Shown in pieces: positions 4,345 through 30,412 of a DNA stretch of 61,955 bases. Each line of letters begins with the position of its first letter. Within the stretch, counting starts at the first letter, position 1. Under the pieces are notes generated by a model. That model searched no databases. It was not told the DNA's origin and saw only the letters and a list, made by a program, of their open reading frames with translations. The position numbers were made by a program, and so were the translations under genes. This stretch comes from an uncultured Bacteroidia bacterium (GTDB taxonomy: Bacteria > Bacteroidota > Bacteroidia > Bacteroidales > Prolixibacteraceae), in assembly GCA_903923905.1 (NCBI GenBank), contig CAIXZH010000006.1, positions 1 to 61,955 of the forward strand. The letters are read 5' to 3'.

Positions 4345-5199
4345 TTAGGCGTGAATATGTTTTTCCGCATGGTAGGATGACCGGACCAGCGGACTACTTT
4401 CTACCATACTGAATCCCTTTTGAATAGCGGCTTCACGGTATTTAATAAAGGTTTCTGGTTTTATGAACTCCACTATTTTAAGATGGTGAGAAGTTGGCTG
4501 AAGATATTGCCCAATGGTCAGGACTTTACAGCCCGCTTTAAGCAGGTCATCCATAGTTTCGAGTACTTCCTCCTCAGTTTCCCCAAGTCCCACCATAATA
4601 CCTGATTTAGGTACAATTCCAGAGGAGGCGATAATTTCAATCACCTTAAGGCTCCTGTCATATCGTGCCACATCTCTGACTTTAGGGGTTAATCTGCGGA
4701 CCGTTTCCATATTATGAGAAATTACTTCTGGTTTGGCATCAATAATAATCTGGATCAAACTGGCATTGGCATAAAAGTCAGGAATCAGGGTCTCCATCGT
4801 AATTCCGGGATTGAACTCCTTTACTTTTCTGATAGTCAATGCCCAGAAAGCGGCACCGCCATCATCAAGGTCGTCTCTTGTGACAGAGGTTAATACGCAA
4901 TGTTTAATTTTCAAGGTTTTAATCGTTTCTGCCAGCCGGACAGGTTCTTCCATATCCACATCATCCGGAATCATATTCCTGACATCGCAAAACCGGCAGT
5001 TCCGGGTACATTTTTCACCTAGAATCATAAAACTTGCCGTTGATGCCCCCCAGCATTCCGCTTTGTTGGGGCAGTTTCCGCTTACACAAATGGTATTCAA
5101 TTGCTGGTTATTGGCCAGATTTTTCAAAGCAACATAGTGCTTTCCGGATGGGAGAGGAGTTTTCATCCAGTCCGGAAGTCTTCGCGTAGTTGTGCTCAT
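4345..5199 (-). CDS. lipA: Lipoyl synthase
   Basis: Radical SAM enzyme that inserts two sulfur atoms into octanoyl groups on lipoyl domains. Both cluster sites are visible: the auxiliary 4Fe-4S ligands Cys38, Cys43 and Cys49 (CVSGNCPNKAEC), and the radical SAM CTRNCRFC motif at Cys64, Cys68 and Cys71. The conserved RSSYHAEKH near the C-terminus includes the serine that ligates the auxiliary cluster. At 284 residues it is of normal length. Its product is needed by 2-oxoacid dehydrogenase complexes such as the one whose E1 lies at the far end of the adjacent cluster. A 209-bp gap with no recognisable promoter separates it from the mevalonate kinase gene, so co-transcription is uncertain. Confidence 0.97.
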   Translation of the reverse strand: MSTTTRRLPDWMKTPLPSGKHYVALKNLANNQQLNTICVSGNCPNKAECWGASTASFMILGEKCTRNCRFCDVRNMIPDDVDMEEPVRLAETIKTLKIKHCVLTSVTRDDLDDGGAAFWALTIRKVKEFNPGITMETLIPDFYANASLIQIIIDAKPEVISHNMETVRRLTPKVRDVARYDRSLKVIEIIASSGIVPKSGIMVGLGETEEEVLETMDDLLKAGCKVLTIGQYLQPTSHHLKIVEFIKPETFIKYREAAIQKGFSMVESSPLVRSSYHAEKHIHA

Positions 5200-5408: not shown

Positions 5409-6326
5409 TTATATTCTCTGTTCAACAACTGTATAATCAAGTTGGTTTAAATTAAAATAGTTCTCGGCCTTTGAACGATCCCGCGAAATTCCGAGAATAT
5501 ATCCGCCACCACCTGAACCACAAATCTTTAAATAGAAATAGCCACTCTCAATGCCATAGTTAAAATGTTCGATCATCTTCTCAGGAATCATGGGCCGGAA
5601 GTGAGCAAGCTGCAATTTTGAGTAGCTGGTCAATAAAATTTCAAAAGTAGTGAAATCGGATGCCAGAAGAGCATTTATTGTTTGATTTATCACCGGGATA
5701 TATTCAAGATCGATCAACTCTCTAAAACCAGATTCCTGATATTTTTCCATGAAATAATTTACCAGAGCTCCCGTATTTCCGGGAGAGTGAGAATTAATTA
5801 AAAATAGGGTATAGGTATTAAAAAAAGGGGATAGGTCTACAGTTGTATCCGGATCCTTCATATTTCGGAAAAGTACTGGCTTACGGATCCAGGAAATAAA
5901 CGGGTCAATTCCTGAACTAACTCCATGGAAACAAGACTCTATCGCTGCAAGGTTTGACTTAATAGTCGGGAGATCCTTCAGAGCACCATTTACTGCGTAC
6001 CTGTCATAAATTGCCGCTGAAAGGGCACCCGAACTCCCTAAACCAGATCCGGAAGGGATGCTGGAGTCAAAATACATTCCCAGGGCGAGGTCACTTTCAA
6101 ATTGTTGAATATCCAGAAATTCAAAATCCTCCGAATGGTCTTTAAAATAGTGGTTTAGTTTAGTCATCGCACTATTTGACTCGGATTCATGTTGAGAATA
6201 ATGTCTCTTTAATGAATCCGGGAATCGGAATCTCCCGGAAAATCGGAGGTAGGGAATGGCCAGAGCATTAGAATTCAGGAGGATGCCGTATTCTCCAAAC
6301 AGAATTATTTTGGCAGGATAATCCAT
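5409..6326 (-). CDS. mvaK1: Mevalonate kinase (GHMP kinase)
   Basis: Phosphorylates mevalonate with ATP, the first kinase step towards isopentenyl diphosphate. The 305-residue protein shows all three GHMP kinase motifs: an N-terminal PAKIILFGEYGIL (residues 4-16), the ATP-binding PSGSGLGSSGALSA (91-104), and the C-terminal CGSGGGGYILG. The SGID segment (138-141) supplies the expected catalytic aspartate. It is the last gene of the ten-gene minus-strand cluster, with 11 bp between it and mvaD. Other GHMP kinases look similar, but the neighbours (decarboxylase, HMG-CoA reductase, second kinase) make mevalonate the likely substrate. Confidence 0.88.
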   Translation of the reverse strand: MDYPAKIILFGEYGILLNSNALAIPYLRFSGRFRFPDSLKRHYSQHESESNSAMTKLNHYFKDHSEDFEFLDIQQFESDLALGMYFDSSIPSGSGLGSSGALSAAIYDRYAVNGALKDLPTIKSNLAAIESCFHGVSSGIDPFISWIRKPVLFRNMKDPDTTVDLSPFFNTYTLFLINSHSPGNTGALVNYFMEKYQESGFRELIDLEYIPVINQTINALLASDFTTFEILLTSYSKLQLAHFRPMIPEKMIEHFNYGIESGYFYLKICGSGGGGYILGISRDRSKAENYFNLNQLDYTVVEQRI

Positions 6327-6337
6327 TAATGTTCAGA

Positions 6338-7393
6338 TTAAGAGGTCATTTGTATGGGGCCGCTCCCTATCTTATCGTCAATCCACTGACCCCCTTCGCA
6401 ATACGGACTAAGGGTTTGCCTGACAAACGAAAGTACCTGCTCGCGTTGATCTTCATAATAAATCAGATGAACGTTTGGCCCTGCATCGATTGTGTAAAAC
6501 AGATCAAGTCCGGAAGTTTCCCGAAAAAGTTTGATTTCTTCAATAATATGCAATGTATCAGGCTTTAACAATAATCCTTCAGGTCCGGAAGTCATTAATA
6601 GGGCATGCAGGGAAAGGGCTTCATTTTCGGAAATCAGCGCGATTGTCTGGTAATCATTATTGCGAATAGCATTTGTAATTTCTGCCATATTAGCGTTCGC
6701 CTGATCTTTCCTCCCTTCACGATAGGGATGGGCCTTCATCAATGCATGACCTTTACTGCTTGAAACAGCCTTTTCTTTTGAACTGACAATCAATATGATA
6801 TCCATAACCCGATTAAGCCTGCTTTCACCAGGAAAAAGGAAGGGGGTAGCATAATCGTCCGATGATTGGTCGATGGAGGGAATAGTTCCCCAGGTAACAA
6901 TACCGCCATACAAGGATCGGGAAGCGCTACCCGAACCCAGCCTTGCAATTATTGACCCTCTCTGGTAAAAATCCTCATGTTTTAATTGATTACCAGTGAC
7001 TTTCTCTTCCATGCTCACCAGACAAAGGGCCAGAGCACTCATTGACGATGCCGAAGAGGCGATTCCGGTTGAATGTGGAAAGTTATTCTCACTTTTAAAA
7101 ACAAGTTCATAATCAGCCAGAAATGGCATTTCAGTTAACAATGAGTTGAGTAATTCTCTTGTCTTTTTCTCAAATTGAGACTGTTGGACTCCATGAAAAA
7201 AGTACCGGAGACTAATATTTTGATCTCCTGCCTTTTTTTTCTGAAAAGATAGGTAGGTCGTTGTGGTTGATTTATCGAGGGTTATGCTTAAAGAACCATT
7301 TTCGGGCAGCTGATTCGCCCTTTTCCCCCAATATTTAATCAGCGCAATATTCGAAGGGGCTCTCCATCCAATTGTTATCGTCTCTTCGCTCAT
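6338..7393 (-). CDS. mvaD: Diphosphomevalonate decarboxylase
   Basis: ATP-dependent decarboxylation of mevalonate 5-diphosphate to isopentenyl diphosphate. The N-terminal IALIKYWGKR (residues 16-25) followed by LPENGSLSITLD is the diagnostic signature of the family. The ATP loop STGIASSASSMSALA and the substrate-site stretch GSGSASRSLYGGIVTWG are also present. A late DAGPNVH motif holds the catalytic aspartate. The length, 351 residues, is normal. It lies between the two GHMP kinases (43 bp and 11 bp away), which fits co-transcription. True decarboxylase signatures argue against a phosphomevalonate decarboxylase of the archaeal or Chloroflexi alternative routes, though sequence alone does not fully exclude one. 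Confidence 0.93.
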   Translation of the reverse strand: MSEETITIGWRAPSNIALIKYWGKRANQLPENGSLSITLDKSTTTTYLSFQKKKAGDQNISLRYFFHGVQQSQFEKKTRELLNSLLTEMPFLADYELVFKSENNFPHSTGIASSASSMSALALCLVSMEEKVTGNQLKHEDFYQRGSIIARLGSGSASRSLYGGIVTWGTIPSIDQSSDDYATPFLFPGESRLNRVMDIILIVSSKEKAVSSSKGHALMKAHPYREGRKDQANANMAEITNAIRNNDYQTIALISENEALSLHALLMTSGPEGLLLKPDTLHIIEEIKLFRETSGLDLFYTIDAGPNVHLIYYEDQREQVLSFVRQTLSPYCEGGQWIDDKIGSGPIQMTS

Positions 7394-7436
7394 GGCTTTG
7401 TAGTATTGGTCAATTTGGATATCTTAATATTTGAAT

Positions 7437-8360
7437 TCATATAATCTCATCATATCTGAAAATAGTATTTAAATTTCTGGTTATAAAATAGTTACGTACA
7501 TATTCTTCAGAAGCCTCAGTAGCAACCAGAACAAAATCACCTCCCCATGCTCCCAAAGATTTAACAGATCCATTGAAATCACTAAAAAAGAGCGATTTAA
7601 CAGTCTTTATTTGAATGATTTTACTCACTATTTCCTCGTGTCTATCCATAAGAATCCTAAACGTCAGCAAGTCAGTTGCCTTTTCAAGGCCCAGAGTAAT
7701 TGCAGAGATTTCAGAAATATCCTTTGAACTGACTCCAGATAGATCAGCTTTACCAACGCTCTCCATGGAATTTTGTTTGCGGTTCAGGTAAATAAAATAT
7801 AGCTGACTGTTGAACCTCGGATGAAAGTTCGCCTCCCGGAAAGAGGGTTTATTGTCTTCTAATTTATAAATAATTGGCGATGATGACCTGGCAGAGGCAA
7901 TATCATAGCCTGAGCCATTGAAAATAAGATTGTTGAGTTCGAATGCATCACAATTCGCCCAGTAAGCAATATTTGAGATAAGCGAGCTGCTTGAACCAAT
8001 TCCCCAGGCCGGATCGAAATCCATTGTCGAATTTACCTGGTACTCGCAGGATGATCCTAAGAAACTAAAATTAAGCAGCTTTGCAGCTTTTAATATCTTT
8101 TGCAGTGTTTCAGCAAGGTTAAGCTCATTAGTTTCAATAATTTGAAGGTCGGGGAGGATCAAGGTAGTATGAAACCATAAATTATTATTAATTAGTGATT
8201 TCCATCTCACTGAGGGAGTCCCGGATTGCTCTGAGACTGATATTTCCTGTTTGAATTTCAGAGGAATGGCAAGTGCAAGTGCCCCTTTAAGTACCAGGTA
8301 TTCACCGGATATCATCAGTTTTGTTTGGGAACTGAAGGATTTCATCTCTCTGAAATTCAT
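7437..8360 (-). CDS. GYDIA-type GHMP kinase, probable phosphomevalonate kinase
   Basis: A 307-residue GHMP-fold kinase with an N-terminal LMISGEYLVLKGALALAIP segment, a GIGSSSSLISN ATP loop, and the GSGYDIASARSSSP motif that names the Bacteroidota 'GYDIA' group. The C-terminal glycine motif is SLGAWGGDF instead of the usual GxGGG. With mevalonate kinase and diphosphomevalonate decarboxylase already encoded next door, the open reaction in the pathway is phosphomevalonate to diphosphomevalonate, so phosphomevalonate kinase is the best assignment, by context. Its start overlaps the HMG-CoA reductase stop by four bases (8357-8360), indicating translational coupling. It is too divergent for a confident call from motifs alone. 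Confidence 0.75.
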   Translation of the reverse strand: MNFREMKSFSSQTKLMISGEYLVLKGALALAIPLKFKQEISVSEQSGTPSVRWKSLINNNLWFHTTLILPDLQIIETNELNLAETLQKILKAAKLLNFSFLGSSCEYQVNSTMDFDPAWGIGSSSSLISNIAYWANCDAFELNNLIFNGSGYDIASARSSSPIIYKLEDNKPSFREANFHPRFNSQLYFIYLNRKQNSMESVGKADLSGVSSKDISEISAITLGLEKATDLLTFRILMDRHEEIVSKIIQIKTVKSLFFSDFNGSVKSLGAWGGDFVLVATEASEEYVRNYFITRNLNTIFRYDEII

Positions 8361-9664
8361 GATGTTATCCTGATTTGCATGATGAAATCATAAACAACAG
8401 AATGGCTTACTGTACTGTTTTTAAAATATTCATTCGTCAGATTACGCTCCTGCTCAGTGGCATTTAGCTGATTCAGGATGTTTGACAAATGCATTTTCAT
8501 GTGGCCGCTCTGGATCCCGGTAGTTATCAGGGATGCAATAGCCGAGAAATTATTGGCTAGTCCTGAAGCGGCTGCAATCATCATGAGTTTACTGGCATCA
8601 GGAAATTTTAAAATAGCCATTACGCTTTTGACCAGGGGATGAATTTGGGTGATCCCTCCGACAGTTCCAAGAGCCAACGGAATTTCCAGTTCGTACCTGA
8701 AGGTCCTATCTGTTATTGTTACCTGAGTTAATCCTTTGTATTTTCCCTCTTTTGAAGCATAAGCATGCGCACATGCTGCTGTGGCTCTGGAATCATTTCC
8801 TGTTGCCAGAAGTACCGCATCAATGCCATTAAAAATTCCCTTGTTGTGAGTTACAGCTCTTGAAATGTCGAGATTGGCAATATCAACAGATTGTTTAAAT
8901 TTATTCGCAAATAGGTTGCATGACAGATCTTTATTCCATCCTGTAAGTTTTTCTACAGGACATTCAACCCAGCATCTTACCTTACACTCCGGCGTATAAT
9001 TGGAAAGGATAGACATAATAATTTCCACCGAGTTTTGATCTGAATTCAATTCATCCAGGTTCTGTAAAGTTGTGGCAATCTTTTCAAGACAGGTATTGAT
9101 AAAATTGGCACCCATCGCATCACCGGTTTTAAAAGAGACATCAATCTGGTAATAATCAGTAAGTTCATTCGTTTTATCGATTAGCTCCAACCCGGTTATT
9201 CCTCCCTCGCGTTGTCTCATCTTGTCCGTTAAGTCGTGGGTGGAGTTCAGTAGTTTGCCTTGAATCTGTGGAAATATTTGATGCATCCTGAAAGGATCTC
9301 CATTCCAGTTAAAGTGCACCTGACCCTTTTTAGTCATTGTATGAACTTCAGCTCGGAAACCACCTCTTTCGGCCCAATATTTTGCGGCTTTTGAGGCTGC
9401 AGCTACAACGGAACTCTCTTCTGTTACAAAAGGGATAATAAATTGTTCATCATTAATGATCATATTGGTTACCACGCCGATGGGAGTTGGAAAATTACCA
9501 ATATAATTTTCAATCATTTCGCTGAACACGCGTTGTTGATTCTCGTTGGGAGCACAGTAGTCATTAAAAGAAAGTATCTTGGAAACCTCTAATTCTGAAT
9601 GATCTGCAATATAAGCAAGCCGTTGGTTGCGGTCAAATTTTGAAAAACCGGAAATGATACCCAT
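8357..9664 (-). CDS. mvaA: Hydroxymethylglutaryl-CoA reductase, class II
   Basis: Converts between HMG-CoA and mevalonate with a nicotinamide cofactor. Class II signatures are present: the ENYIGNFPTPIGV stretch with the catalytic glutamate, the cofactor motif DAMGANFIN, a GTVGGITQIHP segment, and the catalytic histidine in SGHMKMHL near the C-terminus. At 435 residues it matches the Pseudomonas mevalonii type, which databases call 'degradative'. Here it sits among biosynthetic mevalonate genes, so the direction is most likely HMG-CoA to mevalonate. There is no N-terminal membrane domain. It overlaps the downstream kinase by four bases and follows idi2 after 87 bp. No HMG-CoA synthase gene is nearby. 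Confidence 0.95.
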   Translation of the reverse strand: MGIISGFSKFDRNQRLAYIADHSELEVSKILSFNDYCAPNENQQRVFSEMIENYIGNFPTPIGVVTNMIINDEQFIIPFVTEESSVVAAASKAAKYWAERGGFRAEVHTMTKKGQVHFNWNGDPFRMHQIFPQIQGKLLNSTHDLTDKMRQREGGITGLELIDKTNELTDYYQIDVSFKTGDAMGANFINTCLEKIATTLQNLDELNSDQNSVEIIMSILSNYTPECKVRCWVECPVEKLTGWNKDLSCNLFANKFKQSVDIANLDISRAVTHNKGIFNGIDAVLLATGNDSRATAACAHAYASKEGKYKGLTQVTITDRTFRYELEIPLALGTVGGITQIHPLVKSVMAILKFPDASKLMMIAAASGLANNFSAIASLITTGIQSGHMKMHLSNILNQLNATEQERNLTNEYFKNSTVSHSVVYDFIMQIRITS

Positions 9665-9751
9665 GTCTTTGAATGCAATAAATAAAATTTGATCTGTCAG
9701 TATATTAGATCTTTAAATCAATGATTTGTAGCGAACAGCATATTGGACTGA

Positions 9752-10813
9752 TTATTCAGCCCTATTCGGCTTCTTTAAGGTTAGGAAATTAAGTGCCATC
9801 CTATAGCCTTCGATTTGTGCAGCAACGAACTGCTGTAAGTCTGCATATTCTCCCTGGCTATACATTAAAAAAGCCGATCCCTGCGCATAAATTGCCGGCA
9901 GAACAGATTTTTGGGTTAGGTAATATCCGTCGAGATAGTTATGAATTCCTCCTGAAATAATCAGTTGGTTACAAGCGAAATCAGCACCATTCATCACCAT
10001 GTCATTCACAAGATTTACCATCTCTTCAGCAGTAACCCCTACATTTACAAATGGTTGGTGCAATTCATGTTTCAGAATAGGATTTCGTTGTATTTCAACT
10101 TTTGAAAAATTAGTTCCCCCAAATGCACCAAATTCAACGGCTGTAAGTGGTAACTGCAGCAAACGGCGAATGCTCTGTGGACCGAAACCTTGCCCAACCT
10201 CCTTTACAATCAATTTAAAATCAATTATTTCTAAAAGCTTCTCGATAGTTTCAAGGGGAGGATGGTAAATGATATTCCCTTCCGGCTGAACCCATTCCTG
10301 AAGTGGATTGACATGAATGATCAGTCCGTCAGCTTTTAACCGGTCGATCAGGCGCCTTAACTGATCGGTTTCCTTTTTTTCAATCATCTCCTCAATTTGC
10401 GCAATCCCCAAATTTGCAAAGAGTGGGTTTTCGTCACCAATGATCGAACGCACGTCAAAATCATCGAAATAAGTCTCTTCGCGGAGGAGCATTCGGCAGG
10501 AACCCAATCCCATACCCATTCCAAATTCTTTACAGGCCATCGCCAGGTTCCGGTTTATCTTCCCGGACAAGAGATGTCCCCCTGTCATGCTTGAAATCCA
10601 GATCGGAACCTTTAATTCTTTACCGGCAAATGGAATCCTGTCCAGCGATTTCAACGGAAATCCTGAAATCATCGGCTCATAGTAGAAACGGTTATCTACT
10701 TCATTCACTAATGTTTGCGATTTAAGTGCCAGATTGATATGATCGGATTTCCGCTGTGAATCGCCAGAAATCGTTTCATTTATCGGGCCTTCAGATTTGT
10801 CGGTTATTGCCAT
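9752..10813 (-). CDS. fni: Isopentenyl-diphosphate delta-isomerase, type 2 (FMN-dependent)
   Basis: Interconverts IPP and DMAPP using reduced FMN. The 353-residue protein has the type 2 features: ISSMTGGH near residue 95, GMGMGLGSCR (the usual GLGSQR loop), the substrate-site HVNPLQEWVQPEGN containing the conserved Gln-Glu pair, VKEVGQGFGP with the conserved lysine, and FGGTNFS in the FMN phosphate site. The type 1 Nudix-like enzyme is unrelated. It follows the acyl-CoA dehydrogenase gene after only 18 bp, which physically links the leucine-derived CoA genes to the mevalonate genes. Confidence 0.94.
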   Translation of the reverse strand: MAITDKSEGPINETISGDSQRKSDHINLALKSQTLVNEVDNRFYYEPMISGFPLKSLDRIPFAGKELKVPIWISSMTGGHLLSGKINRNLAMACKEFGMGMGLGSCRMLLREETYFDDFDVRSIIGDENPLFANLGIAQIEEMIEKKETDQLRRLIDRLKADGLIIHVNPLQEWVQPEGNIIYHPPLETIEKLLEIIDFKLIVKEVGQGFGPQSIRRLLQLPLTAVEFGAFGGTNFSKVEIQRNPILKHELHQPFVNVGVTAEEMVNLVNDMVMNGADFACNQLIISGGIHNYLDGYYLTQKSVLPAIYAQGSAFLMYSQGEYADLQQFVAAQIEGYRMALNFLTLKKPNRAE

Positions 10814-10831
10814 GGTTATTAGAAAATGAAA

Positions 10832-11974
10832 CTATAAAACGTAACGCGAAATGACCATTTTTAAGATCTCAGAGGTCCCTTCGCCGATTGAAAGTAGCCT
10901 TTGATCACGGTAAAAACGTTCAATATGGTTTTCACGAAGAAATCCAAATCCACCGTGAATCTGAAGCGATTCCCCTGCAACCTCCCGGGCAATATCTGAA
11001 CAATATAATTTTGACATTGCAGCCTGCTTTCCAAAAGGTAACCCGGCCTCTTTTAGCCGGCAGGCATGGTATAGCGTATTTCTGGCCAGCTCAATTTTCA
11101 TGGCCATTTCAGCAAGTTTAAATGATACAGACTGAAAATCAGCTAATGGTTTCCCAAACTGTTTACGTTTTTTTGCATAGTCTGCAGCCATCTCAAACGC
11201 TCCCTGTGCAAGACCTAATCCGATAGCGGCGATAGATAGTCTGCCACCATCGAGCGTCGAAAGCATAATCTTTAACCCTTCACCACGTTTCCCCAGGATA
11301 TTCGATTCCGGCACACGGCAATCACTGAAATTTAGTTTCCCGTTATCTACAGCGCGCCACATTAATTTCCCTTTTATCGGAGAAGTTACATAACCGGGAG
11401 TTGATCGGTCAAGTAAAATAGCAGAGAGCTCTTTTTTGCCATCTTTTAGGCCTGTAATAGCCTGAACTGTAATACCTGTCGCAATGGATGAACAGCTATT
11501 GGTAATAAACATTTTTGATCCGTTTATGATCCAATGGTCCTTTTCCAGATTAGCTTCAGTTTCAACACCCTTGGCATCTGATCCGGCATTCTCTTCTGTA
11601 AGCCCAAATGCCCATAATTTTTCACCGGTACATAAACCAGGCAGATATTTCACTCGTTGCTCTTCAGTTCCAAAGGTGAAAATCGGGTTAATACCCAGGG
11701 AGTTATGGGCGGCAATTGTAGCAGCAGGGGAGCTGTCTACCCGGGCAAGCTCTTCAACTGCAATAATATAGGAGATATAGTCCAGACCTTGACCTCCATA
11801 TTTTTTAGGCAGTGTAATTCCGAATAACCCGGATTTTCCCATTTTAAGGGCTAAATCAACAGGAAATTCCTCCTTCTCATCTTGCGCAATAGCTATCGGT
11901 TTAACGACACTTTCAGCAAACTCCCTGACTTTTTTCCGAAATTCTATATACCTCTCATCTAATAACTCATTCAT
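10832..11974 (-). CDS. Acyl-CoA dehydrogenase, probable isovaleryl-CoA dehydrogenase by context
   Basis: A 380-residue FAD-dependent acyl-CoA dehydrogenase. It has the three-domain family layout with WAFGLTEENAGSDA, a middle beta domain, RKQFGKPLADFQSV and the C-terminal RFYRDQRLLSIGEGTSEI. Context predicts that it oxidises isovaleryl-CoA to 3-methylcrotonyl-CoA (LiuA role). One point argues for caution: Glu365 in IGEGTSEI is at the catalytic position of short/medium-chain dehydrogenases, while classical isovaleryl-CoA dehydrogenases have Ala or Gly there and use a glutamate elsewhere. It may be a short or branched-chain type recruited to this step, or act on another substrate. It overlaps the carboxylase alpha gene by four bases (11971-11974). 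Confidence 0.85.
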   Translation of the reverse strand: MNELLDERYIEFRKKVREFAESVVKPIAIAQDEKEEFPVDLALKMGKSGLFGITLPKKYGGQGLDYISYIIAVEELARVDSSPAATIAAHNSLGINPIFTFGTEEQRVKYLPGLCTGEKLWAFGLTEENAGSDAKGVETEANLEKDHWIINGSKMFITNSCSSIATGITVQAITGLKDGKKELSAILLDRSTPGYVTSPIKGKLMWRAVDNGKLNFSDCRVPESNILGKRGEGLKIMLSTLDGGRLSIAAIGLGLAQGAFEMAADYAKKRKQFGKPLADFQSVSFKLAEMAMKIELARNTLYHACRLKEAGLPFGKQAAMSKLYCSDIAREVAGESLQIHGGFGFLRENHIERFYRDQRLLSIGEGTSEILKMVISRYVL

Positions 11975-13974
11975 TTACAATCCTCCAGAAATATTAGGGG
12001 CATTCGGTCAGTCACCTGAGCTCCTACATTAACAGCAATTTTTTTTACTTTGGCATCTTTGGGTGAAAGAATCCGATTTTCAGATTTCATCGATTCAATC
12101 ACCATTAAAAGGTCCCCTTTTTTTATGATTTGGTTTTCTATTATATTAATTTCCAAAATTTTACCATGAAGTGGTGACTGGATCTCCCCACTTTTAGAAT
12201 TCGGATTAAATGCCTGGTCAGCCAGAACTTCCGGGTAACTAGTTAACAATCCTGGAAATGAAATGTTGTACCGGATATTATTGAAAGTTATATTTAGATT
12301 GTTTTGACTCTCAAAAATAGCAGAAATTCTGCTTGTTTGGTTCTTGATTTCCAGATCGGTAATATTTCCGGATTGATTAATGATCTTAAATGCAGTTCGA
12401 ACTCCATTTAACACAAATGCTGGATTTGATTTGTCTTTCAGTTCAAGCGTTACAAAGTAAACCTCACTATCAACCGAGATCTTTATATCAGCAGACGTTG
12501 AACGCCAATATCCCTGAAAATCCCAGGGGCCATCAGAGTCTTTAAAATCTGCTTTTAGATACATCTTAGAGACAGCCAGGGCAATCAGCGGATATAATTT
12601 GTATGGATTGAGTTTATTTATATAGCTTTCAATTAAAGTTGTATGAGTATTACGGCAAAATTCTACTGACAAAATATTTTGCTGATAACTGTAATGGGAG
12701 AGAATGGTTTCGAGGTATTTGGTATTGGTTTCAGGACCCAGAATATTCAGGTTTTTAATATTTTTCGTCAGAACGCAGATCGCATTTTCCCTGTTTTTAC
12801 CTTTGGCTATTAGTTTTAATAATAATGGATCAAATTGATTAATAGTTGATTGGTTACCATTGAAATTAGACTCAATTCTTAGATTCGGTTCGTTGGGTAG
12901 GTCAACCGAAAGCAATGCCGAAGAGGATGGCATAAAGTTTTGAGTCGGGTCTTCGGCATAAATTCGAAGCTCAATGGCATGTCCTGTCAGCTTAACTTCT
13001 TCCTGTGAAACTGAGAGAGGAAAACCTGAAGCAACCTTTAATTGCTCACTGACAATATCAATGCCAGTGACCTCCTCTGTGACAGCATGTTCTACCTGGA
13101 TTCGCGGATTCATCTCAATAAAGTAGTAATTACCGGTTTCATCGATCAGAAATTCAACAGTTCCGGCACCGGTATAACTAACTGCTTTTCCAATTTTTAC
13201 GGCAGCGCCTAAGATCTCATTACGCAACTCAGGGGATAAAAAAATTGCAGGAGCCTCTTCAATGATTTTTTGATGATTTCGCTGAATAGAACATTCACGT
13301 TCGTATAAATGAATAATATTATTGAAGTTATCTCCTAATATTTGAACTTCAACATGACGTGCATTATGAATATATTGCTCTGCAAAAAGCTCTCCATTGC
13401 CAAAATAGTTCAACGCTATTCGGGACGATTTTTCAATTGTTTCAAATAACTCCTGGTAATTATAAACGATATCCATCCCTTTTCCACCACCGCCATACGA
13501 AGCCTTTATCAATAGGGGATAATTTAAATGGATTTCATCAGATACTTTGGAGAGAAGATTGATTTTCTGACTTAAAACTACCGGAATATTTAAGCTTTCA
13601 GCTAAAGACTTGGCGTCAGGTTTACTGCTCATTAGCCTTAATACTTCCGAAGTGGGACCGATAAACACGAGATGATTCTCTTCGCATGCTCTTGCAAACG
13701 CCGGGTTTTCAGAAAGAAAGCCATAACCGGGGTGTATTGCCTCCGAACCGGTTGCGATTGCAATTTGGACAATCCGCTCAATATTGAGGTAGGTGGAAGT
13801 CAGTTCCCCAATCCCAAGGGATATTGCTTCGTCGGCTAATTGAACAAATTCCGATTCTTTTTCCGATTCGGCATAGATAGCCACTGTTTGAATGGCTAAT
13901 TTTTTTGCCGAACGGATGATTCTTAATGCAATTTCACCTCTGTTCGCAATTAATATTTTAGTCAATAAACCCAT
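11971..13974 (-). CDS. Methylcrotonyl-CoA carboxylase alpha subunit (biotin carboxylase plus biotin carrier)
   Basis: The 667-residue protein joins biotin carboxylase (about residues 1-450) to a C-terminal biotin carrier domain. It begins with the family motif ILIANRGEIALRI. The ATP-grasp loop ASYGGGGKGM and the EMNPRIQVEHAVTEE active-site segment are present. The carrier motif is ESMKSE with biotinyl-Lys630; AMKM is more common, but ESMK occurs in acyl-CoA carboxylases. Together with the beta subunit it would carboxylate 3-methylcrotonyl-CoA to 3-methylglutaconyl-CoA. The middle linker (about 460-590) is divergent. Acetyl- or propionyl-CoA carboxylase is the alternative, disfavoured by the neighbouring hydratase and the beta subunit type. 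Confidence 0.87.
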   Translation of the reverse strand: MGLLTKILIANRGEIALRIIRSAKKLAIQTVAIYAESEKESEFVQLADEAISLGIGELTSTYLNIERIVQIAIATGSEAIHPGYGFLSENPAFARACEENHLVFIGPTSEVLRLMSSKPDAKSLAESLNIPVVLSQKINLLSKVSDEIHLNYPLLIKASYGGGGKGMDIVYNYQELFETIEKSSRIALNYFGNGELFAEQYIHNARHVEVQILGDNFNNIIHLYERECSIQRNHQKIIEEAPAIFLSPELRNEILGAAVKIGKAVSYTGAGTVEFLIDETGNYYFIEMNPRIQVEHAVTEEVTGIDIVSEQLKVASGFPLSVSQEEVKLTGHAIELRIYAEDPTQNFMPSSSALLSVDLPNEPNLRIESNFNGNQSTINQFDPLLLKLIAKGKNRENAICVLTKNIKNLNILGPETNTKYLETILSHYSYQQNILSVEFCRNTHTTLIESYINKLNPYKLYPLIALAVSKMYLKADFKDSDGPWDFQGYWRSTSADIKISVDSEVYFVTLELKDKSNPAFVLNGVRTAFKIINQSGNITDLEIKNQTSRISAIFESQNNLNITFNNIRYNISFPGLLTSYPEVLADQAFNPNSKSGEIQSPLHGKILEINIIENQIIKKGDLLMVIESMKSENRILSPKDAKVKKIAVNVGAQVTDRMPLIFLEDCK

Positions 13975-14020
13975 AAATTATTGATTAATAATATATTGTA
14001 TTTAATTCTTGTATTAAAAG

Positions 14021-14803
14021 CTACCATTTTGGTTTCCTTTTCTCTAAAAAAGCGGAAAAACCTTCCTGGGCTTCAGGTGATACCCTGATTCGGGCCAATA
14101 ATTCAGGGATTTGTTCTTTATTCCCGGCTAGTAATTTTTCCGTTAATTGATTAATCAGCTTTTTAGATTCCATGATAGCCAGTCGGCCATTAGAAACTAT
14201 CTGAGTAATGACACCTTCTAAATGTAATTCCATTTCAATTGAAGAGGCAAATGATTGATTGACCAACTGATAATTAAATGCTTCTTCCCCTGAGAAGTTC
14301 CTGGCAGTGAAGATAAGCTCCTTGAGATCTATGGCAGACACTTTCAAAAGCAGGTAAGGGGTAATAGATGATGCGGCCATTCCGATTCGGGTTTCACTTA
14401 AGGAAAACCTGGAATTTGCCTGACAATAAGCGAGATCACAAACTGCCACTAAACCGTTTCCGCCGCCATAGACATTACCATGAACAACCGCAATAACAAT
14501 TTTACTGCTATTAAAGATCATCTTGAACATCTCTGATAACTCCAGACTCTCTTTCAGATTTTCCGATGCACTCAATGTAAACGATTTTTTCATCCATAGC
14601 AGATCAGCGCCTGAGCAAAATGATTTTCCAGAACCCCGGATTACAACTATTCTTAATTCATTGTCTTCTTCAATTTGCATAAAGAACGAGGAAATCTCGC
14701 GTATCATGATATCATTTAAAGCATTATGCACATCGGGTCGGTTCAGCCAAAGTGTTGCTACATGTTCTTTTATCTCTGTTTTTATGGTTTGGTAGTTTTC
14801 CAT
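14021..14803 (-). CDS. Enoyl-CoA hydratase, probable methylglutaconyl-CoA hydratase
   Basis: A 260-residue crotonase-fold protein. The oxyanion-hole segment SFCSGADLLWMK contains the GADLxWM pattern typical of methylglutaconyl-CoA hydratases. HGNVYGGGNGLVAVCDLAY and the active-site region SLSETRIGMAASSITPYLL follow. The predicted reaction is hydration of 3-methylglutaconyl-CoA to HMG-CoA, the product used by the HMG-CoA reductase encoded further down the same cluster. It lies between the two carboxylase subunit genes (46 bp from alpha and 58 bp from beta), the arrangement of liu-type leucine catabolism clusters. No HMG-CoA lyase gene accompanies it. Confidence 0.87.
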   Translation of the reverse strand: MENYQTIKTEIKEHVATLWLNRPDVHNALNDIMIREISSFFMQIEEDNELRIVVIRGSGKSFCSGADLLWMKKSFTLSASENLKESLELSEMFKMIFNSSKIVIAVVHGNVYGGGNGLVAVCDLAYCQANSRFSLSETRIGMAASSITPYLLLKVSAIDLKELIFTARNFSGEEAFNYQLVNQSFASSIEMELHLEGVITQIVSNGRLAIMESKKLINQLTEKLLAGNKEQIPELLARIRVSPEAQEGFSAFLEKRKPKW

Positions 14804-14861
14804 TTAAATATTTTACTTAGGTTTTCGACAATCAAATCCAGGTTTCATCGGTTCTGAACCA

Positions 14862-16430
14862 TTACATTCTGTAGATTCCATTTTTGGGAGGATCAACCCG
14901 GTTGTTTGAGGCGATTGATAAGGATAATCCGACAATCGTCCTGGTATCAGCCGGATCAATAACTCCATCATCCCATAGCCTTGAAGTACTGTAATAGGCT
15001 GAACTCTCGTCCTCAAATCGCTGAATTAGATCTGTATTTTGAGCTGAACTATCTCCTTTAATCGAATTTAAGACCTGTTGAGCCTGTTGTCCGCCCATCA
15101 CTCCGATTCTGGCATTAGGCCAAATGAATAGGAAATTAGGATTATAGGCTCTGCCAGCCATGGCATAATTCCCTGCACCAAACGAACCGCCAATGATTAC
15201 CGTTATTTTTGGAACCACAGCTGTGGCTACCGCATGGATTAATTTGGCCCCATTACGTGCAATCCCTTCATGTTCATATTTTTTTCCAACAATGAAACCT
15301 GAGATATTTTGCAGAAAGAGCAGGGGAATTTTTCGGAAATTACATATTTCGATGAAATGAGCCCCTTTTAATGATGATTCAGAGGTAAGAAACCCATTAT
15401 TAGCAATAATGCCCACAGGAAGTCCCAAAATCCTGGCGTACCCTGTAATGAGAGTTATTCCGTATTCCCGTTTAAACTCTTCAAATTTACTCCCGTCTAC
15501 GATTCTGGCAATTATTTCGTAGATTTCCACTGGTTTTTTTAAATCGATGGGAGCCAAACCATATATCTCTCTTGGATCATATTTGGGTTCTTCAATCTGA
15601 TGCTTTTCATAATTCCGGGACTCGCTTTGAGGAATTGATTCAAATATATTACGACAAATTCGGATAGCATCTATCTCATTTTCTGCAAGATGATCAGCAA
15701 CACCTGAAATTCCCGTATGCACGAATGCTCCACCAAGCTCCTCTGCTGTAACTTCTTCGCCAGTTGCGGCCTTAACCAGGGGAGGACCTCCGATGAAGAT
15801 GGTCCCCTGATTTTTAACAATAATAGTTTCATCGCTCATTGCAGGAACATAGGCTCCTCCGGCAGTACATGACCCCATTACAATGGAAATTTGCGGGATA
15901 CCGGCTGCGGACATTTGCGACTGGTTATAAAAGATTCGGCCAAAACCATCAGAATCAGGGAATATACGGGCTTGTTCAGGTAAAAAAATACCTCCGGAAT
16001 CAACCAGGTAAACGCATGGAAGATGATTTTGCAAGGCAATCTCCTGGCCTCGGAGATGTTTTTTAACCGTTTCACGAATATACGTCCCACCCTTTACCGT
16101 TGCATCATTTGCAATGAACATTGACAATTTCCCCTGGATTTTCCCAATCCCGGTAATAATACCTGCGGAGGAGAACTGGTCCTCATATTGTCCAAAAGCA
16201 GCCAATGCTGAGAGTTCAAGGAAAGGGGTATTCTCATCAATCAGCAATTCAATCCTGCTCCTGGCGTCCAATTTTCCGCGAGAGCTATGCCTTATGACAG
16301 CTAAATCCTCTTCCCGCCTTATGACACTATTCATCCTGGAATGATAAATACCCATAATTTCGGCAAATAATTCAACTCTGGCCTTATACTGATCGTCTGA
16401 TTTATTGATATTTGATTGGATCTGTTTCAA
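14862..16430 (-). CDS. Methylcrotonyl-CoA carboxylase beta subunit (carboxyltransferase)
   Basis: A 522-residue carboxyltransferase whose central block [16 protein letters not shown], then [17 protein letters not shown] and [14 protein letters not shown], is characteristic of methylcrotonyl-CoA carboxylase beta subunits; acetyl- and propionyl-CoA types differ there. The C-terminal half has the second crotonase-like domain with [11 protein letters not shown] and [11 protein letters not shown], and the protein ends in the family-typical YRM. It is complete at both ends. It transfers the carboxyl group from biotin on the alpha subunit to 3-methylcrotonyl-CoA. It follows the fused E1 gene by 14 bp, tying the carboxylase directly to branched-chain 2-oxoacid oxidation. 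Confidence 0.93.
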
Positions 16431-16444
16431 CTATGAGATTTTAT

Positions 16445-18865
16445 TCAATCATAAAGTCTCGGATACTTATCCGGATTATTCGCGTGCATTATTTCATAAA
16501 CCGCTTCGATAATGGTTTCAGTATTAGGTTTGGAAAAGTACTCACCATCGGTTCCGTAAGCACCCCTATGCACTTTAGCAGAGAGTGTTTTAGGTGGGGC
16601 TTCAAGATATTGAAATGCTTTCTGCTCTTCAATTACTTTTTGCATCATATACGCTGTAGCTCCACCGGGAACATCTTCATCCACAAAGAGGATTTTTTTT
16701 GTTTTTTGAACTGACCGGCAAATAATCTGTTGAATATCAAAAGGGATAAGTGTTTGTATATCAATTAATTCAACTGATATATCTAATGCTTTTAATCTAT
16801 TGACAGCGCTGTGCGCAATGGTAACGTTCCAACCATAAGTGACAATAGTAATATCCTCACCCTCCTCCAAAATTTCAGGCATGCCGAGCGGAACGGCAAA
16901 TTCCCCGAGGTTATCCGGAAGCATTTCACGAATATAATATCCTTTCAGGGGTTCGATTACCAATGCAGGATTATGAGCTTTTAAAAGAGTGTTGTAAAAA
17001 CCGGCCGCCTGTGTCATATTGCGTGGAACACAAATATTAATACCACTCATGGAACCCAATAACATACTCATAGGTGAACCTGAATGCCACATTCCCTGCA
17101 ATTGATGACCTCTGGTGCGGATGATCAACGGTGCAATCTGTTGTCCACTCGTACGGTAATAGAGTGTAGAAAGGTCATCTGAAATTGTAGGTAATGCATA
17201 AAGCAGATAATCAAGATATTGAATTTCAGCAATGGGACGAAAGCCTCTCAGCGCCAAGCCGATTCCCTGGCCAATGATCGTTGTTTCCCTTATACCGGTA
17301 TCGAATACCCGGTGACCGCCATACTTTTCCTGCATCCCTTTCATACCCTGGTTGACATCTCCTAATCTTCCGGTGTCTTCACCAAAGGTCAGCAACAAAG
17401 GATATTTAGCAAAAAGCACGTCGAAATTCTGATTAAGTACTTCATGAGCAGGTACGGATAATGGCTCAGAAGCATATACAGGCTTTATTTCATAGCTTGA
17501 ATTATAATGATCTAAATCATTAAATATATGAGTGTTATAATTTTCATAACCATTCTTTTCAAGCCTGGAAACCCAATTTGAAAGATTGCGTTTATTTTTT
17601 TGAAGCGAAGCATTTCCATGCATCGATCTGAGCTGGGTTTTCGCTAATGCCAACAATTTTTTTCGGGTAGGAAAGGGGGCAACCAGAACTTGTTCCAGTT
17701 CCTGGCTTATTTTATCATGAAGCGGATTGTTATCGATTCCAATTGAATCGATCAGATCCTGAAGTTGTTGCTTTTCTTCATCAAAATCCTGAATAAATGA
17801 TTGCCAGGCAAGTTCCCTGGCTAGTCTGGCACGCTCAACTGCCTTGTTTTCAAGTGAAACCAGGGTGTCAAGATCGGTCATTTTTTCCTGAAGAATCCAT
17901 TCACGAAACTTCAAAATTGGATCATGCTCCTTTTCCCATGCAATTCGTTCATCACTTTTATACCGTTCGTGTGATCCGGATGTGGAATGTCCCAGCGGTT
18001 GTGTCAGATCAGTAATATGGAAAATAACCGGTATATGTTGTTCACGACAAATCTTTATCCCTTTTTCAAATGTCCTGATTAAAACAGGATAATCGTACCC
18101 CTGACAAACAAATATTTTGCATCCCGGATCTTTTTCGTCAGCTTCAAACCCTTTGAGCGCCTTGGAAATACTGGCTTTGGCTGTCTGAAGTTCGACAGGA
18201 ACGCTTATCCCAAAACCATCATCCCAGATTGCCAGGGCAAGAGGAACCTGAAGCACGCAGGCAGCATTGATGGTCTCAAAAAACATCCCTTCCGATGTAC
18301 TGGATTCACCGATCGTGCCAAATGCCACTTCGTTGCCGGTAATTCTATTTTCCAGAAATTGCTGTAAATCAGGATTTTCTCTCACTAGCTTTGAGGCTTG
18401 GGCCAATCCTAAAAGACGGGGCATCTGTCCAGCTGTCGATGAAACATCCGAGGAAGAGTTTTTTTGTTCAAGCAGGTTATCGAGTCCTATCCCTTTACCA
18501 TATGTCCTGGTCGCATGATGGTTATTGAAATTTCGCCCACCGGTTGACGGGTTATTTTCAAGGTCAGTATCTCCGTATATTTGTGCGAAAAATTCTTCAG
18601 GACTCAGCAAATGTGCTGCCATCATGAAGGTTTGATCCCTGTAATACCCTGATCTCCAGTCTCCCTTTAAGAAATATTTAGCGTAAGCAACTTGTGCAAT
18701 TTCTTTTCCGTCACCAAAAATCCCAAAATGGGCACGCCCTGCATGAACCTCTTTTCTCCCTAGAATACTCAACTGCCTGCTAAGGAATGCTGTGTAATAA
18801 TCGTCAATAACGTTCTCTTTGGTAATAGGAAACGATGAATTTAGCTTGTCTTCTTCCAGATGCAT
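16445..18865 (-). CDS. 2-oxoacid dehydrogenase E1, fused alpha and beta subunits (branched-chain type likely)
   Basis: The 806-residue protein fuses the thiamine-diphosphate E1 alpha chain (about residues 1-410) to E1 beta (about 455-806). The alpha half has GESSTSEGMFFETINAA and the IWDDGFGISVP cofactor loop. The beta half has LLTFGEDTGRLGDVNQG, ETTIIGQGIGLALRG and IIRTRGHQLQG. Such fusions are common in Bacteroidota. Placement 14 bp before methylcrotonyl-CoA carboxylase beta suggests that it oxidises 2-oxoisocaproate from leucine to isovaleryl-CoA, though valine and isoleucine ketoacids are probably also used. The E2 and E3 partners are not in the window. lipA, needed to lipoylate E2, lies at the other end of the same strand group. 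Confidence 0.88.
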   Translation of the reverse strand: MHLEEDKLNSSFPITKENVIDDYYTAFLSRQLSILGRKEVHAGRAHFGIFGDGKEIAQVAYAKYFLKGDWRSGYYRDQTFMMAAHLLSPEEFFAQIYGDTDLENNPSTGGRNFNNHHATRTYGKGIGLDNLLEQKNSSSDVSSTAGQMPRLLGLAQASKLVRENPDLQQFLENRITGNEVAFGTIGESSTSEGMFFETINAACVLQVPLALAIWDDGFGISVPVELQTAKASISKALKGFEADEKDPGCKIFVCQGYDYPVLIRTFEKGIKICREQHIPVIFHITDLTQPLGHSTSGSHERYKSDERIAWEKEHDPILKFREWILQEKMTDLDTLVSLENKAVERARLARELAWQSFIQDFDEEKQQLQDLIDSIGIDNNPLHDKISQELEQVLVAPFPTRKKLLALAKTQLRSMHGNASLQKNKRNLSNWVSRLEKNGYENYNTHIFNDLDHYNSSYEIKPVYASEPLSVPAHEVLNQNFDVLFAKYPLLLTFGEDTGRLGDVNQGMKGMQEKYGGHRVFDTGIRETTIIGQGIGLALRGFRPIAEIQYLDYLLYALPTISDDLSTLYYRTSGQQIAPLIIRTRGHQLQGMWHSGSPMSMLLGSMSGINICVPRNMTQAAGFYNTLLKAHNPALVIEPLKGYYIREMLPDNLGEFAVPLGMPEILEEGEDITIVTYGWNVTIAHSAVNRLKALDISVELIDIQTLIPFDIQQIICRSVQKTKKILFVDEDVPGGATAYMMQKVIEEQKAFQYLEAPPKTLSAKVHRGAYGTDGEYFSKPNTETIIEAVYEIMHANNPDKYPRLYD

Positions 18866-20729: not shown

Positions 20730-21791
20730 CTATTTAAAACAAAAGGAACCCGGAATTATTCCTACCTTAAAACTGTCAATTTTAACTCCCAGCGAAGAAT
20801 ACCGATAAATAATTCCATCCTGCTGATAATCAATTGCATCACTGAGATACAGCTCTGAATTTAGAGGATCCACAGCGAGGCTGTAATAGAGATGCGTTCC
20901 TGCAATCAGGAAAGGATGATCTCCTAAAGAAGTTTGATTTACCCCAAGTTTCCATATTCCTGCATTGATAAATAATATTGAATCGCCCGTTCCATTGATT
21001 GCCAATCGGGAAGGATTGGCATCTGATGTCAGTGAAAAGTTCTCATCAATGGTACGTGTTGAAGGATCAATCCGCTGAAGCATTGGGATTCTTCCTCCTG
21101 ACCCGCTCTTTACCCATCCTCCATCGCAGAGAACCCAAATCTTATTGAATTTATCCTGCACCAGGCCACCTGGTTGTTTCCCTGTTTTGATGGAATCGAC
21201 CACCTGATCAGTTTTGGTATTTATCACTAAGACTGTATTATCGTAAGACCAGCAACTCACAAACAGAAAATCATTCCATTGAACCATCTGCTCCGTAGAT
21301 GCATGTCCCGGAGTAAGAATTGTTCCGGTAATTTGGTAGGTCGTTGGATTTACAATAGATATTTTTCCGGCATAAAGGTCTGTAATATAAGATTTTTCAG
21401 CGCTTATGAAATGCATATATCTTGGAGAGGTCAACCCGGTAATTTTTCCGACATATTTTCCGGAGGTGGTATCGATCACATAAATTTTTCCTGAATTGTT
21501 GATGACGATATATCCAAATCCATTTTGGATTACCATAGATTGAGCAACATCACCAAGGGGTAAACCATTGATCGAAGAGAAGATGTCGTTTTGGACTATC
21601 CTGGTCGCGGGATCATAATCAGATAGGGACGCATTACCATACATGAAATTCCCCTCGTTAATGATAAATACTCCTTGTGAAGGGATATTAACCTTTAAAG
21701 AACTATTGATCACCCCATTTTTTTTCATACACCCGTAAAACAATGGGAGTGTTAATACGAAAAACATGATATTTAATTGGCGGATAGTCAT
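20730..21791 (-). CDS. BtuG-like beta-propeller surface lipoprotein (cobalamin binding)
   Basis: A 353-residue lipoprotein with a signal peptide and lipobox at LFYGC. The body consists of YVTN/YncE-like propeller repeats, for example YVIDTTSGKYVGKITGL, SIVNPTTYQITGTI and LVINTKTDQVVDSIKTG. It is the last gene of an operon behind a cobalamin riboswitch and follows the TonB receptor with a one-base gap (21791/21793). In Bacteroides the surface beta-propeller lipoprotein BtuG sits beside BtuB, binds B12 very tightly and hands it to the receptor. Family resemblance plus identical context make the same role likely here. Other propeller lipoproteins have other ligands, so the riboswitch is the main evidence for B12. 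Confidence 0.8.
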   Translation of the reverse strand: MTIRQLNIMFFVLTLPLFYGCMKKNGVINSSLKVNIPSQGVFIINEGNFMYGNASLSDYDPATRIVQNDIFSSINGLPLGDVAQSMVIQNGFGYIVINNSGKIYVIDTTSGKYVGKITGLTSPRYMHFISAEKSYITDLYAGKISIVNPTTYQITGTILTPGHASTEQMVQWNDFLFVSCWSYDNTVLVINTKTDQVVDSIKTGKQPGGLVQDKFNKIWVLCDGGWVKSGSGGRIPMLQRIDPSTRTIDENFSLTSDANPSRLAINGTGDSILFINAGIWKLGVNQTSLGDHPFLIAGTHLYYSLAVDPLNSELYLSDAIDYQQDGIIYRYSSLGVKIDSFKVGIIPGSFCFK

Positions 21792-21792
21792 T

Positions 21793-23838: not shown

Positions 23839-23855
23839 TAATAATTATCAGTCAA

Positions 23856-25010: not shown

Positions 25011-25119
25011 ACTTAAAATCAAATTAATGTCAGACAATAATTGATTCTAAGCTAATGGGAAGTCTTGCAGAATGGTAAACCGGCCACCTGAACGCTTTTA
25101 TCCCGAAAGCTTAAACCGT

Positions 25120-25300
25120 GAATGGCTGGTCTTCTGACTTATCCCGATCTCCGGTTACCTTCCCATCCTTTTTTGGCAAGGATAGTGGCTATTAACCAGA
25201 AACATACTATTCCGCAAAGGCGGAATCGGGTTTTACAGCAGCGGGTACTGTCCCGGATTTACACCGGATTCCCAAATTAAGCCCATCAGGGCACCAATTC
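25120..25300 (-). ncRNA. Cobalamin (adenosylcobalamin-type) riboswitch
   Basis: On the minus strand the 5' part reads GGTGCC, a spacer, then GAATCCGGTGTAAATCCGGG and CAGTACCCGCTGCTGT. A paired GATTCCGC/GCGGAAT arm and GCCACT follow, then GGGAAGGTAACCGG. The 3' part is the B12 box GTCAGAAGACCAGCC (25138-25124). These are the conserved blocks of the cobalamin aptamer in order. An AAGCTTTCGGGATAAAAGC hairpin downstream could be part of the expression platform; it has no U-tract, which suggests control of translation over termination. It controls the PKD lipoprotein / btuB / btuG-like operon. Confidence 0.95.
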
Positions 25301-25304
25301 AATA

Positions 25305-25312
25305 CAAAAGTA
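25305..25312 (-). promoter_or_regulatory. Promoter -7 element for the cobalamin-regulated operon
   Basis: TACTTTTG on the minus strand matches the Bacteroidota TAnnTTTG consensus exactly. It places the predicted transcription start near 25298, right at the 5' edge of the riboswitch aptamer, which independently supports both calls. The -33 region is T-rich without a clean TTTG. Confidence 0.65.
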
Positions 25313-25406
25313 AACATTTACTTTTATAAAAAAAATGATAATTTTATTCGACAGGTCTTTCACTCAATTGAAAATTTAATATATTGATAACCAATTAAAT
25401 AAATAT

Positions 25407-28105: not shown

Positions 28106-28171
28106 AAATTAGTTTATTTGTAATTGTATTTACTGCGTAGAATTATTTTTATGGAATATTCCCGAATAAAA

Positions 28172-29236: not shown

Positions 29237-29319
29237 AGACCGAAATCTGGCATTGTTTTTGACAGTAAGTTGTGAAATAAATTGCCATTTTTTAACGGTT
29301 AATCCAAAATAATATAATC

Positions 29320-30363: not shown

Positions 30364-30412
30364 TTTTAAGTTTAATTAAAACTTTTATTTGTATTTATAT
30401 TCAATTATTTAA

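Follow-up and report, generated by a model that had tools for sequence, protein, structure and literature searches.

The DNA analysed here (the window) comprises 61,955 nucleotides of contig CAIXZH010000006.1 from the assembly GCA_903923905.1 of an uncultured Bacteroidia bacterium of the family Prolixibacteraceae (119 contigs totalling 5.41 Mb, completeness 97.8%), and it carries on its minus strand ten contiguous open reading frames (ORFs), spanning 5409-18865, in which a set of leucine-catabolic (liu-type) genes is joined to the genes of the mevalonate pathway (Table 1). The arrangement given in the first-pass annotation of this DNA, ten same-strand genes that overlap twice by 4 bp and are nowhere more than 87 bp apart, was reproduced to the coordinate, with the overlaps at 8357-8360 and 11971-11974 and the widest gap at 9665-9751. 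A terminator-like site on the minus strand was found in none of the operon gaps, the promoter and terminator counts being about those of shuffled sequence, and the Rfam scan of the window gave no match within the operon. The families were assigned with the use of NCBIfam and Pfam, several operon proteins scoring below the curated cut-offs of NCBIfam. By sequence family, the cluster contains both subunits of methylcrotonyl-CoA carboxylase (MCC), a methylglutaconyl-CoA hydratase and an acyl-CoA dehydrogenase, so that the enzymes leading from methylcrotonyl-CoA to 3-hydroxy-3-methylglutaryl-CoA (HMG-CoA) co-occur with HMG-CoA reductase (HMGR) and with two further canonical mevalonate enzymes, mevalonate kinase and diphosphomevalonate decarboxylase.

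Table 1. Genes of the operon in the order of transcription, with the downstream neighbours (window positions, unless loci of relatives are named; bits are profile or structure-chain scores)
Feature	Position	Strand	Basis of assignment
Fused 2-oxoacid dehydrogenase E1 alpha-beta, proposed 2-oxoisocaproate to isovaleryl-CoA	16445..18865	-	E1_dh, Transket_pyr and Transketolase_C domains
Methylcrotonyl-CoA carboxylase beta, carboxyltransferase (MCCB)	14862..16430	-	Similarity to solved carboxyltransferases
Methylglutaconyl-CoA hydratase, LiuC/AtuE type (ECH), product HMG-CoA	14021..14803	-	NF005675 (210 bits) and NF004227, gamma-carboxygeranoyl-CoA hydratase (206 bits), neither reaching its cut-off
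Methylcrotonyl-CoA carboxylase alpha, biotin carboxylase and biotin carboxyl carrier (BCCP) domains (MCCA)	11971..13974	-	Biotin_carb_N/C, CPSase_L_D2, Biotin_lipoyl; top solved relative MCC alpha, 430 bits
Acyl-CoA dehydrogenase (ACAD), proposed isovaleryl-CoA dehydrogenase	10832..11974	-	Acyl-CoA_dh domains
Type 2 isopentenyl-diphosphate isomerase (IDI2)	9752..10813	-	TIGR02151, 190 bits, below cut-off; top solved relative 1vcf, 115 bits
HMG-CoA reductase (HMGR), class II-like	8357..9664	-	PF00368, 284 bits; TIGR00532, 250 bits (cut-off 260); top solved relative 7n7s, 421 bits
GYDIA-family GHMP kinase, proposed phosphomevalonate kinase	7437..8360	-	Family assignment
Diphosphomevalonate decarboxylase (MVD)	6338..7393	-	TIGR01240, 172.6 bits, above cut-off
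Mevalonate kinase (MVK)	5409..6326	-	TIGR00549, 74.9 bits, below cut-off; GHMP N and C domains
Lipoyl synthase LipA, next downstream	4345..5199	-	TIGR00510, 340 bits
UbiA-family prenyltransferase of relatives	L006, L023, L035, L122, L123, L127, L128, L129, L163, L168 (L006 and L122 are one genome)		Pfam on L128 and L168; NCBIfam on L128, below cut-off

The carboxyltransferase gave 648 bits to the solved chain of AccD1, 606 bits to MCC beta of P. aeruginosa and 425 bits to geranyl-CoA carboxylase (GCC) beta, and the chains named propionyl-CoA carboxylase beta reached at most 260 bits, except the so-named 9tps at 620. We take AccD1 to be an MCC; its database record labels it an acetyl-/propionyl-CoA carboxylase. 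Three further carboxyltransferases of the source genome share 34-35% identity with the operon protein. What we assume to be the catalytic motifs of HMGR look intact by eye. For the GYDIA kinase, phosphomevalonate kinase headed one fold list, by a tie, and mevalonate kinase the other.

HMG-CoA synthase was not found in the source genome with PF01154, nor with a profile (A2) built from 15 Bacteroidota synthases, on which three control genomes, whose own synthases are among those 15, score 677-692 bits. Similarly, no HMG-CoA lyase lies in the operon, and a search of the genome with a single Flavobacteriaceae lyase detected none; the two enzymes, which the first-pass annotation had noted as missing from the operon, were hence not detected elsewhere in this genome either. 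The lyase profile NF004283 gave three matches of 42-43 bits, two of which are 2-isopropylmalate synthase (LeuA) and a citramalate-synthase-like gene in the ilv/leu biosynthesis cluster, and the third of which sits on contig C2. Lyases of the phylum reach 105-203 bits on this profile, under its cut-off of 246, and the lyase calls therefore depend on the gap in scores. The ilv/leu cluster of the genome could supply 2-oxoisocaproate. DXR and IspG, the two genes of the methylerythritol phosphate (MEP) pathway that were searched, are both present, and since they are kept, the mevalonate route would be a second isoprenoid supply in this organism; its candidacy as the only isoprenoid source was not upheld.

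The surroundings of HMGR were compared in relatives, a junction being defined as MCC or acyl-CoA dehydrogenase genes upstream of HMGR on the same strand. A scan of genome contigs gave 36 HMGR loci, and of 119 genomes searched separately, 55 have HMGR, the source genome being one of them; the 54 relatives (L115-L168) were compared, with the genomes behind L001-L007 and L030 counted once. The junction, for which a survey of related genomes had been suggested at first pass, is present in 45 of these 54, the complete nine-gene set MCCB-ECH-MCCA-ACAD-IDI2-HMGR-GYDIA-MVD-MVK in 34, and a broken gene order in none. By kinship, it was found in 13/13 members of the same genus, 28/29 of the same family and 4/12 of other families of the order, into which the joint order persists at 42-54% HMGR identity, and its carriers include the single-contig genomes of L130 (5.14 Mb) and L132 (3.96 Mb). 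Two additional junction loci of the contig scan, L028 and L031, stand outside this count. Among the nine loci where no junction was seen, five (L134, L140, L141, L146, L167) meet a contig end at most 2.3 kb upstream, and four (L136, L149, L153, L165) have 8-9 kb upstream of HMGR that contain no MCC. Given the 45 of 54 relatives and the unbroken order, the adjacency within the operon exceeds chance.

The flanks of the operon are conserved more narrowly. The E1 gene adjoins it in 10 of the 11 same-genus loci with upstream coverage, and no stretch retrieved from another genus has it there; LipA lies downstream in 12/13 same-genus loci (L120 stops short), and also in the family loci L128, L129, L142 and L151, and may possibly serve the E2 partner of the operon E1. 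Directly after mevalonate kinase, at 54-266 bp, a UbiA-family, MenA-like prenyltransferase stands in ten loci (Table 1). As a separate observation, the operon of L135 is split between the acyl-CoA dehydrogenase and HMGR by roughly 2.8 kb of sequence that holds several small ORFs, some of them toxin-antitoxin or PIN-like by eye.

The 45 junction relatives and the source genome, 46 in all, contain no synthase above noise on profile A2 (20-21 bits in G400 and G432 only), and neither does any of the 55 HMGR-bearing genomes. The lyase was found with the same Flavobacteriaceae query in 0/46 junction genomes, in none of the 43 searched genomes of the family of the source organism (f1, source genome included), and in 3 of the 9 HMGR-bearing relatives where no junction was seen (G437, G474, G475); a synthase was found in 0/9 of the latter. 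From their long reading frames, the matches of 40-53 bits to the lyase profile in junction carriers were classed as paralogues, LeuA-type or other; of the three in the source genome, two were checked. Among 11 junction carriers (G000-G007, G028, G030, G031, where G000 is the source genome), DXR is present in ten and missing from G003, and IspG is present in ten and missing from G006.

The same front half occurs elsewhere with its catabolic ending. In five liu clusters of other genomes (L169, L171, L185, L189, L190), HMG-CoA lyase (HMGL) stands behind the dehydrogenase, the order in L185, L189 and L190 being MCCB-ECH-MCCA-ACAD-HMGL. L169 and L171 have extra ORFs in between and, at the MCCA position, an oadA-like biotin protein; two 3-oxoacid CoA-transferase subunits come after the L169 cluster, and the lyase of L171 is cut off by the contig end. 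These lyases were recognised by NF004283 (185 bits in L169, about 105-110 in G008 and G009, all below the cut-off) and by their mutual similarity, and HMGR of the lyase-linked genomes is found on another contig or, in G008, distant on the same contig. In the window, the position of the lyase is occupied by IDI2-HMGR-GYDIA-MVD-MVK. Judged by sequence, the mevalonate module thus takes the place that the lyase has in a liu operon. In a quick, unrooted MCCB tree of 45 rows (44 different) with long branches, all five lyase-linked rows fall to the same side of a branch supported at 95 (SH-aLRT, the Shimodaira-Hasegawa-like approximate likelihood ratio test), and because of this a single change between the lyase and the mevalonate ending suffices. 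The oadA/pyruvate carboxylase B-like proteins themselves (718-720 amino acids; L169:11256-13409 and L171:4552-6711; family f62, checked for L169) might indicate a carboxylase acting by transcarboxylation.

We read this locus, with a probability of about 0.82, as a dedicated leucine-to-isoprenoid operon, predicted from its genes to lead from leucine or 2-oxoisocaproate through HMG-CoA and mevalonate to isopentenyl diphosphate (IPP). Leucine, or 2-oxoisocaproate from leucine biosynthesis, would be converted to isovaleryl-CoA by the operon E1 with E2 and E3 partners presumably encoded elsewhere, and isovaleryl-CoA would be oxidised to 3-methylcrotonyl-CoA by the operon dehydrogenase; the biotin-dependent MCC would then form 3-methylglutaconyl-CoA, and the hydratase HMG-CoA. 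Because neither a lyase to split HMG-CoA nor a synthase to make it was found, HMGR is expected to take it to mevalonate, from which mevalonate kinase, the GYDIA kinase as the probable phosphomevalonate kinase, the decarboxylase and the isomerase would give IPP and dimethylallyl diphosphate (DMAPP). Provided that the genes are expressed together and that flux runs in this direction, the operon would be a second IPP supply beside the MEP pathway. The proposal of the first-pass annotation that the leucine skeleton is drained into IPP and DMAPP is accordingly favoured by the lack of a detectable synthase and lyase, by the junction and by the five lyase-linked clusters, but this is not the only likely route to isoprenoids, with DXR and IspG present.

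Several points weigh against this reading. The assembly lies in 119 contigs with an estimated contamination of 4.5%, and the absence of the lyase from the 54 relatives stands on one search with a single protein. The gene identities of the first-pass annotation agreed in family, except that the branched-chain type ascribed to E1 was not borne out: its best solved relatives are pyruvate dehydrogenase (PDH) at 146 bits and branched-chain 2-oxoacid dehydrogenase (BCKDH) at 134 bits, so that the two types are not separated by the E1 sequence. The operon dehydrogenase is by sequence of the short-chain type (up to 372 bits to short-chain enzymes versus 216-245 bits to chains named isovaleryl-CoA dehydrogenase) and is not typed to a leucine substrate; yet it has the GEGTSE motif in common with the dehydrogenase in the same slot of the lyase-linked cluster L169, and on this ground it may be argued to serve isovaleryl-CoA. 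When drawn with midpoint rooting, the MCCB tree groups the lyase-linked rows with three junction rows of other families (SH-aLRT 99), and therefore neither a simple replacement of the lyase by the mevalonate module nor the order of the states is established. Since DXR and IspG each occur in ten of the 11 junction carriers, the leucine route need not be essential. Finally, the synthase was undetected also in G437, G460, G467 and G469, which have HMGR and no junction in the fetched stretch, as well as in a large part of the class, as follows.

In a survey of Bacteroidia, for which 326 genomes of at least 95% completeness were requested, HMGR was found in 98, including the source genome, and 80 of the 98 were searched further. 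A synthase over the PF01154 cut-off was present in 16 (17 at E 0.001) and lacking in 64 of the 80, which also speaks against the proposed operon function, because with the synthase undetected in so many HMGR-bearing Bacteroidia one of unrecognised kind in the phylum has to be reckoned with. An MCC-like carboxyltransferase (at least 42% identity to the window MCCB, not further typed; three partial) occurs in 78/80, and the contrast between synthase and MCC is uninformative in this survey, the MCC-like gene being nearly universal. The IspG search of 60 chosen genomes of the class covered 56 synthase-negative ones, six with IspG and 50 without; these 50, in which IspG was not found, seem to depend on the mevalonate pathway alone and hence to need a source of HMG-CoA. 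The lyase was found in 21 of the 22 synthase-negative genomes searched for it. Either leucine feeding of the mevalonate pathway is widespread in the phylum, or a synthase of unrecognised kind is common. Tentatively, and at rather less than even odds, much of the mevalonate pathway of the phylum may work without HMG-CoA synthase on HMG-CoA drawn from leucine catabolism, the operon being a specialised lyase-less state that commits leucine to isoprenoids. Apart from this, the open frames that contain HMGR in G342, G212, G215, G335, G320, G046 and G121 are 769-853 amino acids long and may be domain fusions.

Among the other explanations, the best surviving one, which is still unlikely, is that the operon serves mainly for leucine disposal, the reduction of HMG-CoA to mevalonate being a redox and carbon sink in a lyase-less organism and IPP a by-product; it overlaps with the leucine-to-isoprenoid reading, having the identical flux direction and another purpose. 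The retention of DXR and IspG alongside the operon and the ordinary liu set of its front half would suit disposal, as would the two reduced nicotinamides that HMG-CoA reduction uses. However, disposal would need neither the ATP-consuming conversion of mevalonate to IPP nor the isomerase, and the UbiA-family prenyltransferase adjoining mevalonate kinase in ten loci points to the use of IPP. More doubtful still is the formation of HMG-CoA from acetyl-CoA by an unrecognised synthase, with the liu half only loosely tied to HMGR: the frequent synthase-negative genomes of the class, most of those searched lacking IspG too, and the four junction-free relatives named above are in its favour, but it leaves unexplained both the joint order in most relatives and the absence of the lyase from the junction genomes.

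Bacteroidales make iso-branched fatty acids, and myxobacteria, whose aib route produces isovaleryl-CoA, possess HMG-CoA synthase. A corresponding reverse flux here, which would turn mevalonate or HMG-CoA into isovaleryl-CoA as a precursor of such fatty acids, is very improbable and was rejected, since there is no detectable synthase, the operon has an ATP-driven, biotin-dependent MCC rather than AibA/AibB, and the kinases commit mevalonate forward; the argument from MCC had been made in the first-pass annotation and is agreed with, the lack of the synthase being added. An accident of genome rearrangement, which the four loci with 8-9 kb of MCC-free upstream sequence might suggest, has a negligible chance and was dismissed, as the same gene arrangement holds over the family and extends into other families of the order at the HMGR identities given above.

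The flux itself is known from other organisms. Excerpts of a 2021 review (PMC8791446) describe how Leishmania mexicana and Halobacterium salinarum shunt leucine to HMG-CoA and isoprenoids, and there, as proposed here, the leucine skeleton enters at HMG-CoA and proceeds to mevalonate; the present case differs by one bacterial operon, no detectable synthase or lyase, and MEP genes alongside. Excerpts of two papers report labelled leucine or dimethylacrylate traced into myxobacterial terpenoids, geosmin and sorangiadenosines (PMC7321100, PMC8949605). Myxobacteria also have the aib route, which works in the reverse direction starting from HMG-CoA (PMC9548883, in part), and the portions of these three sources at hand describe no dedicated operon. 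The supposition at first pass that direct incorporation was known from trypanosomatids hence proved too narrow, Halobacterium and myxobacteria having to be added (PMC8791446, PMC7321100, PMC8949605, excerpts), while its other half stood: no dedicated bacterial leucine-to-isoprenoid operon was found described in the literature searched, subscription papers being mostly outside its scope. What is new is, therefore, not the flux but the dedicated operon, which has no detectable synthase or lyase and stands beside MEP genes.

With the liu operon of L185, L189 and L190, the order of MCCB, hydratase, MCCA and acyl-CoA dehydrogenase is shared, whereas IDI2-HMGR-GYDIA-MVD-MVK stands here where those have the lyase, and no lyase was found in the source genome. 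With the mevalonate pathway of Flavobacteriia and Saprospiria, the class II-like HMGR and, in some loci, an adjoining GYDIA kinase or type 2 isomerase are shared, whereas HMGR lies apart from MCC in their scanned loci, and the search of those genomes for DXR was negative. For Elizabethkingia and related Flavobacteriaceae, all known mevalonate enzymes except phosphomevalonate kinase are reported in excerpts of PMC4026382, which implies a synthase there. According to the portions seen of a 2026 review on isoprenoid routes in bacteria (PMC13001223), a subset of the phylum is mevalonate-only and dual-pathway species make up 2.42%; the word leucine is absent from its main text. A Lentimicrobiaceae-related candidate genus of Bacteroidales is described with genes of both pathways in excerpts of PMC11129491.

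Outside the operon, the Rfam matches of the window are a tRNA and a cobalamin riboswitch (25107-25313, minus strand, 82.6 bits), downstream of which, at 20730-25037, a PKD-like-domain gene, a BtuB-like TonB receptor and a beta-propeller gene are found. At 28124-31648, two neighbouring DUF6340 genes adjoin the gene of an M48 (CAAX prenyl protease-like) peptidase.

If the leucine-to-isoprenoid reading is true, these bacteria would possess a mevalonate pathway that lacks HMG-CoA synthase and draws on an amino acid, with a biosynthetic module in the place where a catabolic end enzyme sits elsewhere, and it would offer an explanation for HMGR clusters that have no recognisable first step. The operon would also provide the leucine shunt with a natural set of genes; to the knowledge of the authors of the 2021 review as far as its excerpts go (PMC8791446), that shunt had not yet been built in E. 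coli.

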